Origin: an uncultured Muriicola sp.
GTDB taxonomy: Bacteria; Bacteroidota; Bacteroidia; Flavobacteriales; Flavobacteriaceae
Direction of reading: 5' to 3'
Length of the DNA: 35,382 bases
Assembly: GCA_945786965.1 (NCBI GenBank)
Contig: CALZFZ010000142.1
Location: 1 to 35,382 of the forward strand
Each line of letters opens with the position of its first letter. Position 1 is the stretch's first letter. Positions 3,176 through 7,167 of the stretch are shown here, piece after piece. Under the pieces are notes generated by a model, which worked only from the letters and a program-made list of their open reading frames with translations, had not been told where the DNA came from and did not search any database. Made by a program: the position numbers and the translations under genes.

Positions 3176-3208
3176 CAAAATTAATGATTTTAGTCCAGAA
3201 AGGACAAA
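3176..3208 (-). promoter_or_regulatory. trhO promoter with -33 and -7 boxes
   Basis: On the minus strand there is a TTTG (3205-3208), a 21-base spacer, then TAATTTTG (3176-3183), matching the two-part Bacteroidota promoter. The trhO ATG is 38 bases downstream of the -7 box. The -33 TTTG is the end of the T-run of the hairpin at 3213-3233, so terminator-like structure and promoter overlap. Confidence 0.55.
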
Positions 3209-3233
3209 AAAAGAGCCCTGGAATCCAGGACCC
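3206..3233 (-). terminator. Minus-strand intrinsic terminator-like hairpin in the recA-trhO gap
   Basis: On the minus strand, a 9-bp stem (3225-3233 with 3213-3221, two G-U wobbles) closes a 3-base loop and is followed at once by seven Ts (3206-3212). This is a textbook intrinsic terminator shape. No minus-strand gene ends here, since recA on the other side is plus-strand. It would stop an antisense or small transcript starting between 3234 and 3410, or insulate the trhO promoter. Confidence 0.5.
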
Positions 3234-3410
3234 TTCGAAATCACTTTAAGGGAATTTTCTTTTTCATAGAAGCATAAACCAGTAAAGTGAACAACAATTG
3301 AGCTGTATTTTTAATTAAGATGAGCTAATTTCAAAAAGGTTGCTTTAGCCATTGTGATATGAAAAAAGAAATGGTAATTTAGCTACCCTCATATTAAAGA
3401 CAGAGAAGCA

Positions 3411-4439: not shown

Positions 4440-4502
4440 TAATACCCTTTTTGGAAAGCAACCCTTCCTTTTTATTATCATCTTACTAGAAACAATTTTG
4501 AG

Positions 4503-4925
4503 ATGAGCTTAAAGAAATCAATATCTGTTGTACTTTGTTTTCTTGCCTTAACACTTAGTTCCTGTAAGCTGGAAGACGATCGGTTAAACTTTCGTTTTGT
4601 TTCCTTACAGATCCTCAGTGCAGACTTGCCGGAGTCTTTTGATCTAAACCAAACCTATGAGATCAACGTCACATACCTAAAGTACAGTACATGTGTATTT
4701 TACGAGGGGTTTGATGTTACAAATGACGGATTAACCACAAGGAATGTTGTAGCTATTGGGTCTGAATTTTATGAACAAAGTTGCGCCCAGGTTACAGAAG
4801 AGTATGAAGCTACCTTTAATTTTATTGTGCTCTATGAGGGTACTTACCTGTTCAGGTTTTGGACCGGGCAAGATGAAAATGGCGAGCCACAATATCTGGA
4901 AATAGAGGTTCCAGTAAATCCATGA
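4503..4925 (+). CDS. Small hypothetical lipoprotein
   Basis: The 140-residue protein has a lipoprotein signal peptide ending in SLTSSC-like lipobox LSSC (Cys21). The mature part is short, acidic and beta-rich, with Cys near the middle (CVFYEGF and SCAQV segments) that might pair in the periplasm. I do not recognise the family. It ends 37 bases before the ECF sigma gene on the same strand, so cotranscription is possible. A near-consensus CAATTTTG ends only 2 bases before the ATG, too close to be a normal promoter for this start. It is expected to sit in a membrane facing the periplasm or surface. Confidence 0.75.
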   Translation: MSLKKSISVVLCFLALTLSSCKLEDDRLNFRFVSLQILSADLPESFDLNQTYEINVTYLKYSTCVFYEGFDVTNDGLTTRNVVAIGSEFYEQSCAQVTEEYEATFNFIVLYEGTYLFRFWTGQDENGEPQYLEIEVPVNP

Positions 4926-4962: not shown

Positions 4963-5493
4963 GTGAGTCTAAAAAAACTCATCCAACATTGTAAAAACGG
5001 AGATAGAAAGGCCCAGGAACAGCTATACCGTAAATATGCCAGTATACTTTTCGGATTGTGCCTTAAATACTCCCGCAATAAAACGGAGGCAGAAGATAAT
5101 CTGCATGACAGTTTTTTGACCATTTTTGAAAAAATAGATCAATTTAAATTTAAGGGGTCTTTTGAAGGTTGGATAAAAAGAATTACAGTGAACACAGTAT
5201 TGCAGAAGTACAGAAAGGATCAATATTTGAAACTCGTAACTGAAAATACGGAAGAGGAGGCAGAGGTAGATTATGAATTCGCCGACATACAACTTTCTAC
5301 TTTACTGCAATATGTGCAGGAGCTACCGACAAAATACCGACTTACATTTAATTTATATGTGTTAGACGGGTATACACATAAAGAAATCAGTGAAATGCTT
5401 GGTACCTCGCAGGGAACCTCAAAATCTAATCTATCAAGGGCCAGGATGATTTTGAGAGAACGAATTAAAAAGGAAAACATCAACATTGCTTAA
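4963..5493 (+). CDS. ECF-type RNA polymerase sigma-70 factor
   Basis: The 176-residue protein has sigma region 2 (about 8-75, including DSFLTIFEKIDQFKFKGSF) and region 4 helix-turn-helix (about 115-170, with GYTHKEISEMLGTSQGTSKS). It has no region 1 or 3, so it is an ECF sigma. The start is GTG at 4963: the same frame has a stop at 4915 and no ATG between. The next gene begins 11 bases after the stop and has an anti-sigma-like N-terminus, so the two probably form a sigma/anti-sigma pair. The regulon cannot be read from the window. Confidence 0.93.
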   Translation: MSLKKLIQHCKNGDRKAQEQLYRKYASILFGLCLKYSRNKTEAEDNLHDSFLTIFEKIDQFKFKGSFEGWIKRITVNTVLQKYRKDQYLKLVTENTEEEAEVDYEFADIQLSTLLQYVQELPTKYRLTFNLYVLDGYTHKEISEMLGTSQGTSKSNLSRARMILRERIKKENINIA

Positions 5494-5504
5494 TTCAATG
5501 GGAC

Positions 5505-7055
5505 ATGAAAAAGAAAAGTATAGATAAATTATATCAGGAAAAATTAAAGGATTTTGGTCAAATCCCAGATGAACATGTATGGGGATCAATTACTGCTTCC
5601 CTGGATAACAAGAAGAAAAAGCAGCGTGTTATCCCTATTTGGTGGCGATTAGGGGGTGTTGCATCTGTTTTGGCAATTGTATTATTTCTGGTTTTCCAAA
5701 CAGGAAGTTTAAAAACCCCGGAAACTAATCTTACAGACACCAAAAATGACCCCTCATCTGTTTCGGAAGAAGTTGAACGAGTTAATCCCAATGATCTTGA
5801 AGCTTTTCCGAAAATAAATAATGAAGTAACTACTACGACCTCAAACAAATCGCAGGATATCCCCTCAGATAGCATGGAGCTTTTGAATATTCCTGCTATT
5901 CAGGTAGCATCTGAAACTGGGCAAAGAAATACGAATACACCCCCAAATAAGTTCGCTGGGGTTGCTGCGGAAGATCTCAATTCGGATAAATTGAACACAA
6001 CAGTCACTAATAATACTGTTGGAGCAGCAAAAACAAATGATAATATAGAAACTATTAAAAGTGAAGGATTAATTGAAAATGATCGGCCGGATACTCGTAT
6101 TGTGACTGCCGATATTCAAAAAAATAAGTCTGCGGAAGAAAAAAAACCCGCGGAAGCTGAATTAGAGCAAATTGCATTGGATGCCACCAAATCTCCCAGG
6201 GATTTGGTTTCAGATAAAGAGGTTATAGATAATACCTCTGTACTAGCGCCTGAGAAGGATCCCAAAAAATCTATTTTTGAGGATATAGCAACCGAAGATG
6301 TTACGGAGCTTACTGAAACTAATGATGCCAGGTGGGCAATAGGTCCTAAGTTAGCTCCGGTGTATTTCAGTTCATTGACTCAGGGATCGCCCATACATTC
6401 AAGTTTTCAAAATAATTCCAAATCGGGGAACGTTAATTTCAGTTATGGGCTTTCAGTTTCGTATAATGTTAGCAAGAAATTACAGCTACGGTCAGGGATC
6501 CATAAAGTAGATTATGGTTATGACACCAATGATGTTTCTTTTTCGTCCTCTCTTAACGCGGCCACTAGTTCCTTAATAAATAATATCGATTATACCTTAA
6601 GTTCTCAAAACCTGGTTGTGAAAAGCATGAGCAGCAGCGCTGCCAAACTGGCTTCTGAAAGTGCTATGGATGTTGCTGCAACAGATCCTTCCCTTGATGG
6701 CAGGATGATCCAGGAATTTGGCTATCTCGAAGTTCCTGTAGAATTGACCTATGCAGTATTTGATAGGAAATTAGGATTAAATGTGATTGGAGGGGTAAGT
6801 TCCTTGTTCTTAATTAACAATTCTGTGATATTGGAATCGGAAGGTATTGCAACCCAAATGGGAGAAGCAAATAATATAAATGATGTAAACCTCAGCACCA
6901 ATATAGGCATTGGATTTTCCTATACGATTAGTGATAAAATGATTGTAAACCTTGAGCCTATGTTTAAATACCAGTTAAATACATTTTCCAACGCTGCAGG
7001 CAATTTTCAGCCTTATTCTATTGGGGTGTATTCGGGCCTTACCTTTAAATTTTAA
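5505..7055 (+). CDS. Predicted trans-envelope anti-sigma / outer-membrane beta-barrel protein
   Basis: The 516-residue protein has four visible parts. Residues 1-45 are a charged cytoplasmic segment (IDKLYQEKLKDF then PDEHVWGSI, ending in KKKKQR), resembling short anti-sigma regions found next to ECF sigmas in this phylum. Residues 47-66 are one hydrophobic helix. Residues 67-275 are low-complexity and rich in Asn, Thr, Asp, Glu and Lys. Residues about 276-516 are alternating beta-strands ending in aromatic GLTFKF, as in outer-membrane barrels. It lies 11 bases after the sigma gene and before a terminator. Inference: one chain could hold the sigma factor at the inner membrane and sense the outer membrane. 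There is no cleavable signal peptide. Similar proteins are annotated only as outer membrane beta-barrel proteins. Confidence 0.75.
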   Translation: MKKKSIDKLYQEKLKDFGQIPDEHVWGSITASLDNKKKKQRVIPIWWRLGGVASVLAIVLFLVFQTGSLKTPETNLTDTKNDPSSVSEEVERVNPNDLEAFPKINNEVTTTTSNKSQDIPSDSMELLNIPAIQVASETGQRNTNTPPNKFAGVAAEDLNSDKLNTTVTNNTVGAAKTNDNIETIKSEGLIENDRPDTRIVTADIQKNKSAEEKKPAEAELEQIALDATKSPRDLVSDKEVIDNTSVLAPEKDPKKSIFEDIATEDVTELTETNDARWAIGPKLAPVYFSSLTQGSPIHSSFQNNSKSGNVNFSYGLSVSYNVSKKLQLRSGIHKVDYGYDTNDVSFSSSLNAATSSLINNIDYTLSSQNLVVKSMSSSAAKLASESAMDVAATDPSLDGRMIQEFGYLEVPVELTYAVFDRKLGLNVIGGVSSLFLINNSVILESEGIATQMGEANNINDVNLSTNIGIGFSYTISDKMIVNLEPMFKYQLNTFSNAAGNFQPYSIGVYSGLTFKF

Positions 7056-7106: not shown

Positions 7107-7167
7107 GTTACTGCAATTCGCAGTGACTACACAAGCGTCCTGCGATTCCAGTAGGGCGCTTTTTTTA
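7107..7167 (+). terminator. Tandem hairpins with T-run ending the sigma operon
   Basis: The first hairpin pairs 7107-7114 with 7120-7127 (8 bp, one G-U, 5-base loop). The second pairs 7134-7141 with 7153-7160 (AGCGTCCT with AGGGCGCT, one G-U) and is followed by seven Ts at 7161-7167. The second is a clear intrinsic terminator. The first may add stability to the 3' end. Confidence 0.75.

Follow-up and report, generated by a model that had tools for sequence, protein, structure and literature searches.

The question raised by this locus is whether a single polypeptide could connect a sigma factor in the cytoplasm with a barrel in the outer membrane, and what such a pair might control. The locus lies next to recA in a 35,382-nucleotide stretch of a contig of an uncultured Muriicola sp. 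(the window, meaning the whole stretch of DNA that was analysed). The contig belongs to a Flavobacteriaceae genome, whose relatives among named records are Eudoraea, Muriicola, Poritiphilus, Arenibacter, Maribacter and similar genera. A lipoprotein gene (from 4503), a sigma factor gene (from 4963) and an anti-sigma gene (from 5505) form one recA-linked operon with the following features:

4458–4483, + strand: ECF-like promoter of the operon, GCAACC-N15-CATCT (conservation)
4503–4925, + strand: first gene of the operon, encoding a 140-aa lipoprotein without a Pfam family (conservation)
4963–5493, + strand: ECF sigma factor gene, 176 aa, GTG start (Pfam)
5505–7055, + strand: putative single-chain anti-sigma/outer-membrane barrel protein, 516 aa, filed with the Dma kind (Pfam, AlphaFold2, alignment)
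7133–7161, + strand: terminator-like hairpin 3′ of the operon

The product of 4963–5493 matches Sigma70_r2 (E = 1e-11) and Sigma70_r4_2 (E = 5e-15), both over the Pfam cut-offs, and is an ECF sigma factor, as the earlier note had stated. Homologous sigma genes start with TTG in 29 and with GTG in 2 of 31 aligned rows, and such starts perhaps hold the sigma level low. The gap between the sigma and anti-sigma genes is 11 nt; it amounts to 7–43 nt in 29 of 30 relatives, with an 8-nt overlap in one. The tight linkage claimed for the pair was confirmed, and a terminator-like hairpin lies after the operon at 7133–7161. The start of the operon, however, had been set one gene too late and lies at 4503.

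The lipoprotein gene and the ECF gene are present in 59 of the 61 loci of relatives (L002–L062), some of which represent the same species twice; the contigs of the two exceptions begin just 5′ of the anti-sigma gene. In L062, a stop lies inside the anti-sigma frame, reflecting either a broken gene or a sequencing error. The lipoprotein features a conserved Cys21 followed by acidic residues, with a mature end of C-x-x-D/E-D-D, and at least two acidic residues were found at positions +2 to +6 in 15 of 20 lipoproteins (for L055 the script used an earlier Cys). This mature end is similar to the Bacteroidetes lipoprotein export signals reported in PMC5080379, and one may guess from it that the lipoprotein is surface-exposed. 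Identity with NigD was rejected: the window's genome gave no match to NigD_C (PF17415) at E up to 10, while a Bacteroides ihuae control matched. Nor was NigD_C found in 20 relatives.

The 516-aa protein is divided as follows:

5505–5636, + strand: predicted cytoplasmic head, residues 1–44, with invariant Trp26 (conservation)
5637–5699, + strand: transmembrane helix, residues 45–65 (hydropathy and AlphaFold2)
5700–6329, + strand: linker, residues 66–275, with a conserved helix at 257–271 (alignment and pLDDT)
6333–7052, + strand: predicted 8-strand outer-membrane barrel, residues 277–516 (AlphaFold2, fold comparison, conservation)

The AlphaFold2 model, for which a 26-sequence alignment of the window protein and its relatives served as input, has a mean pLDDT of 59.5 and a pTM of 0.45 over the full chain. 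It contains helices 3–13, 23–39 and 45–65 at the N-terminus, a featureless stretch with pLDDT under 50 across residues 66–254, a helix at 257–271 with partly low confidence and eight long strands within 277–515, where the means of ten-residue blocks are 68–93, except for 49 at 381–390. A single-sequence model was uninformative (mean pLDDT 34). The helix at 45–65 coincides with the sole strong hydropathy peak, which has its maximum at 49–67 (2.08 vs. 1.60 for the next-best averaging window). The Pfam family OMP_b-brl_2 matches residues 275–478 with 33.9 bits (cut-off 27); it was found in 20 of 26 relatives and the sister family OMP_b-brl in 25 of 26 (E up to 1). The barrel model resembles the solved structures of OmpA, NspA and OmpW (Z 15–16, rmsd 2.8–3.2), a shared fold that is silent on function. 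A sequence search against solved structures gave no match (best E 0.35).

All 32 aligned rows (the window and L031–L061) share one N-terminal hydrophobic peak, the absence of cysteine and a C-terminal Phe, an agreement beyond what chance would give. The mean column identity is 68% for residues 1–66, 25% for the linker and 72% for the barrel, and the linker (equivalents of residues 68–253) measures 147–204 residues, with a median of 170, in 26 sequences. The head matches no curated anti-sigma Pfam family, and at E up to 1 only two barrel families are listed for the whole protein; the FecR domain and the N- and C-terminal domains of RseA were not found at this threshold. The order head, helix, linker and barrel given in the earlier note is retained in both the model and the alignment. 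The single inner-membrane helix it had put at 47–66 is placed at 45–65, and the C-terminal region it had called a barrel (276–516) is predicted as strands and not as a soluble domain, in agreement with Pfam. Its linker of 210 disordered residues is long and disordered as described, but comprises about 190 disordered residues plus the short conserved helix.

Matches to the 516-aa protein were found in 241 of 299 Flavobacteriaceae genomes (E up to 0.001; some over the barrel only), and profile matches in 99 of 295 class-wide genomes (E up to 1e-5; often head or barrel alone). Trp26 is the sole invariant column among 20 class-wide heads. Nineteen loci of other families were picked by hand from the class-wide profile matches, and in all of them an ECF gene lies directly 5′ of the anti-sigma homologue. 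These linked ECFs score 138–222 bits with the window-clade ECF profile vs. 53.7 bits for an unlinked ECF in L138. Ten of the loci encode barrel-sized chains of 460–548 residues; a barrel family exceeded its cut-off in five of the seven that were scanned (L136, L139 and L140 were left out), L142 and L143 giving no barrel-family match on the scan. Seven loci (L144, L146, L147, L148, L149, L150 and L151) encode short proteins of 241–283 residues that share this head and helix, and the next same-strand gene encodes a separate barrel over the Pfam cut-off in 7/7. The chains of L145 and L153 have about 400 residues, the barrel of L145 being below the cut-off. Since the short heads precede a separate barrel gene in every case, the barrel and the anti-sigma appear to be functionally linked, and since the head and the barrel are separate adjacent genes elsewhere, the single chain can be read as a fusion. 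The plainest reading is that two proteins were joined to give the chain, or that the chain was divided into two. The split form hints at the origin of the chain and offers a natural experiment on the need for a tether.

The earlier note implied that the single chain was new. This arrangement was reportedly named Dma, with Das sigma factors, in Bacteroides thetaiotaomicron by Pardue in PNAS in 2024. The novelty does not hold, as the arrangement was described in 2022 (PMC9308784) and later named Dma. The 2022 paper reports a P. vulgatus anti-sigma that is predicted to span the periplasm, ends in a C-terminal outer-membrane barrel, is encoded beside its sigma factor and is induced by envelope damage. 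According to PMC13088901 (2026), the Dma family consists of an anti-sigma domain, a helix, a disordered tether and a barrel, and occurs in Bacteroidota only, beside ECF21 factors; deletion of dma2, which belongs to a three-gene operon, raises vesiculation via das2. The P. vulgatus pair is named EcfO-Reo in PMC13114119, where Reo is said to span five compartments, nigD, ecfO and reo stand under consecutive locus tags and NigD lipoproteins (three nigD) are placed in the regulon. Reo is proposed to sense outer-membrane stress, and EcfO-Reo is described in Phocaeicola vulgatus and Bacteroides fragilis (PMC9308784, PMC13114119). For these homologous-looking Bacteroides/Phocaeicola pairs, repression of the sigma factor by the chain is reported in PMC9308784, PMC13088901 and PMC13114119.

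The recA-linked pair is filed as a member of the Dma kind with Reo-like parts, for which the direct proof from sequence is partial. The window-clade profile matches four of five NigD-linked barrel-type chains (E 2e-8 to 0.007 in a small database) and misses L094; the Bacteroidales origin of these chains was deduced from NigD. In a profile–profile comparison with them only the barrels align (E 9e-12), and the link between the heads therefore rests on position, length and Trp26. The window-clade ECF profile matches the NigD-linked ECFs over their full length with E 2.8e-43, a value that any ECF might approach, so ECF21 membership does not follow.

The control of the operon was approached through its promoter motif, which recurs on the other side of recA together with a divergent segment:

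3318–3343, − strand: second copy of the promoter, pointing away from recA (conservation)
3206–3314, − strand: probable small RNA with a stem TCACTTTA/TAAAGTGA around CTATGAAAAAGAAA, then a terminator (3206–3236) (conservation, covariation)

In the gap between recA and the lipoprotein gene, GCAACC is present in 22/22 aligned loci and CATCT in 21/22 (CGTCT in L059). The second copy is located in the gap that separates recA from the UPF0176 gene, where GCAACC-N14/15-[CT]ATC[TC] was found in all 25 loci examined. The window contains two motif matches, with 0.03 expected from shuffles. Two opposed sites 1.1 kb apart are present in eight of nine genomes of the genus, G591 having one. Across Flavobacteriaceae, 159 sites were counted vs. 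42 when the pattern was reversed (summed by hand over the first 30 of 299 rows). The window's genome, which is 80% complete, has only 2–5 sites by the pattern applied, two of them around recA; because only the recA-flanking sites and a few others were found, a wider regulon is unproven for this genome.

Two sets of targets in other genera were inspected. Set 1, in which the pattern was first noticed, comprises all 39 sites listed for five genomes of other genera, those at recA excluded. A frame of at least 80 residues starts 8–60 nt downstream of 22 of these sites, and 20 of the 22 products are lipoprotein-like vs. 61 of 443 background ORFs, by a self-made and lenient rule (14% of background ORFs pass) and with many of the 22 genes being mutual orthologues. 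Set 2 (20 sites in three genomes) gave a weaker result, 5 of 9 lipoprotein-like (p = 0.004), with L218 failing by the rule only. The motif often precedes small lipoproteins in the genomes of eight other genera. Ten of the target lipoproteins were scanned, and none reached a Pfam cut-off.

A conserved 28-residue single-helix miniprotein ending in FSVNKKTDP was observed about 27–30 nt past a GCAACC-N15-YATCT site by eye in L165, L177, L185 and L192 and by script in L208; in L165 a second copy of it follows. It was not found in the window's genome, and a search of 21 genomes gave one weak match (E 0.10). An identical promoter-like 26-mer occurs in two genera, at L195 and at G107:C10:165675, where it falls within an open frame or opposite one; the site may be real or may reflect conservation of the coding sequence. 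No copy of the motif was found next to the five NigD-linked barrel-type loci. Flavobacterium psychrophilum has seven ECFs with possibly overlapping regulons, and its promoter before the YceA rhodanese gene, with a CGT −10 box, is tied to other ECFs (PMC9723704). The motif SM6 of this species was not equated with the present promoter, since its −10 box is CGT (PMC9723704).

Past the second promoter lies a segment without a long gene, 97–170 nt as cut, that ends in a terminator. The terminator covaries, with double changes in 10 of 11 pairs, and its end is located 36–281 nt before the UPF0176 start in 25 loci; the UPF0176 gene features its own TAnnTTTG-like box past the terminator (by eye). The purine-rich CTATGAAAAAGAAA precedes the terminator and varies almost only from A to G. 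It occurs in two tandem copies in L039, L047 and L060. The stem around CTATGAAAAAGAAA is usual, with arms differing among clades, and has moderate support: the summed best helix reaches 358, where 200 shuffles averaged 283 and peaked at 318, several rows being close relatives, and the best helix is singly significant (p ≤ 0.05) in 9 of 22 rows. Without the terminator, the segment has a mean z of −1.5, with 7 of 22 rows below −2, and L039 folds without the stem.

A covariance model of the 3′ part (R1), informative only at E up to 1e-6 (at E 0.1, 291 of 299 genomes give something), found 37 matches in 299 genomes at that threshold, some species also being in the model. By coordinates, 35 of the 37 lie on the opposite strand, 2–3 kb from the anti-sigma gene. 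The two exceptions, G217:C4:30989-31050 and G029:C8:58301-58362, are strong, lie away from recA and are possible second copies. Rfam gave no match at gathering scores in the window, the best one near the segment (E 0.66) being a chance match. Both promoters and the lipoprotein are also present in the distant L203, whose divergent transcript is without the loop motif. At about 3344–3410 (+), 5′ of recA, a conserved TATGAAAAA(A)GAAATGG looks similar to the loop motif that the divergent RNA carries on the opposite strand (by eye). On this evidence, 3206–3314 probably encodes a small RNA.

Gene order, conserved parts, the predicted barrel, the promoter motif and its genomic targets together point to a Dma-type envelope-stress circuit, which we regard as probable, in which the chain holds the sigma factor and a disturbance of the barrel or outer membrane frees it for GCAACC-N15-YATCT promoters. 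The sigma–head binding, topology, signal, proteolysis, match of sigma to motif and functions of the RNA are proposed as follows. By analogy with the published pairs, the head (residues 1–44) would retain the ECF sigma factor at the inner membrane. One helix would cross this membrane, the disordered tether would cross the periplasm and the barrel would be embedded in the outer membrane. If barrel assembly fails or the outer membrane is disturbed, the chain may be cut or pulled, again by analogy, and the sigma factor freed. The freed factor would read GCAACC-N15-YATCT promoters and raise its own operon and the divergent non-coding RNA beside recA and, in other genera, further small lipoproteins. 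Since the sigma factor would raise its own operon, the response would first be amplified, until newly made anti-sigma switched it off.

The chain may instead never stably span both membranes, if the linker is routinely cut, the barrel alone resides in the outer membrane and the head–helix stub acts as an ordinary anti-sigma. The hardly conserved linker sequence (25%) fits this reading, and so does the existence of head and barrel as separate proteins in seven sampled loci, because of which one chain is not needed for function. The linker length is kept (147–204), however, although the sequence is not, and no two-gene breakdown occurs in 32 rows; we consider routine cutting unlikely. A head that leaves the sigma factor unbound, with the barrel protein as just an operon neighbour, is highly improbable: the head is without a curated anti-sigma family match, yet heads are conserved at 68%, an ECF gene lies beside the head in 19/19 sampled loci of other families and repression is published for pairs of the same build (PMC9308784 and PMC13088901).

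Two further alternatives concern the promoters and the divergent segment. The GCAACC-N15-YATCT sites might serve another ECF, or several, with the operon as one target among its set, as the seven ECFs of F. psychrophilum, their possibly overlapping regulons and the ECF motif before its YceA gene would allow (PMC9723704). However, the two most constant sites flank the recA/anti-sigma locus itself, and this alternative is distinctly unlikely. An autoregulated operon promoter is the usual sign of a cognate sigma factor. The divergent segment could be a leader that belongs to the UPF0176 (TrhO-type) gene downstream and ends at the terminator, given the ECF-type promoter that precedes YceA in F. 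psychrophilum (PMC9723704), or could encode a minute peptide from the conserved ATGAAAAAGAAA, in which the ATG/GTG is kept and the changes are largely A/G, so that Lys/Arg codons are kept, the reading frame after the start varying. Against these, the covarying terminator closes the segment before the UPF0176 start in 25 loci, and the peptide stop positions vary by locus (by eye). A leader or peptide is somewhat unlikely, and the small RNA is the preferred reading.

The preferred circuit shares with Dma/Das of B. thetaiotaomicron a putative anti-sigma domain, one helix, a long disordered tether, a barrel and an adjacent ECF, and with dma2 the three-gene operon. It differs in its linkage to recA and in a lipoprotein partner that is not NigD by Pfam; the promoter motif, the probable small RNA and the OMV effects are not known to be common to both. 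The order lipoprotein gene, ECF, barrel anti-sigma and the proposed lipoprotein regulon resemble those of EcfO-Reo. In contrast, NigD and the present lipoprotein have no common Pfam family, and the GCAACC motif was not found at the NigD-linked loci fetched. Sigma-E of Enterobacteria is an envelope-stress ECF with the inner-membrane anti-sigma RseA and the small RNAs MicA and RybB. The circuit would share with it an envelope-stress ECF, an anti-sigma in the inner membrane, a promoter of the operon and possibly a small RNA among the targets; it differs in having no RseA match, in carrying the outer-membrane part within the anti-sigma chain and in an RNA that is only probable. In FecR/TonB cell-surface signalling, an outer-membrane barrel informs an inner-membrane anti-sigma. 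A barrel would signal to an inner-membrane anti-sigma here as well, but the chain is without a FecR or TonB-receptor domain, and its barrel is small and OmpA-like, not a transporter. No record of the recA-linked pair, the motif or the RNA was found in the titles and abstract starts of openly licensed papers; the founding PNAS 2024 paper may already describe parts of these findings.

As a tentative proposal, possible rather than probable, the sigma factor and its two-membrane anti-sigma may head a family-wide outer-membrane stress regulon in Flavobacteriaceae with GCAACC-N15-YATCT promoters, comprising small (probably surface) lipoproteins, the 28-residue membrane miniprotein and, divergent from recA, a structured small RNA. 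Such a regulon would be the Bacteroidota equivalent of sigma-E, equipped with an RNA arm of its own, and would have arisen when a two-protein barrel/anti-sigma sensor was fused into one chain. Most of what is known of the Dma kind comes from Bacteroides of the gut; here it extends to most of the sampled Flavobacteriaceae, at one fixed site beside recA. The conserved promoter supplies testable sites for the question of what the pair controls, and the segment that ends in the terminator offers a concrete candidate for a small RNA, of which few are understood in this phylum. If the proposed topology is true, a chain from the cytoplasm to the outer membrane would give the cell a direct readout of barrel assembly at the sigma factor.
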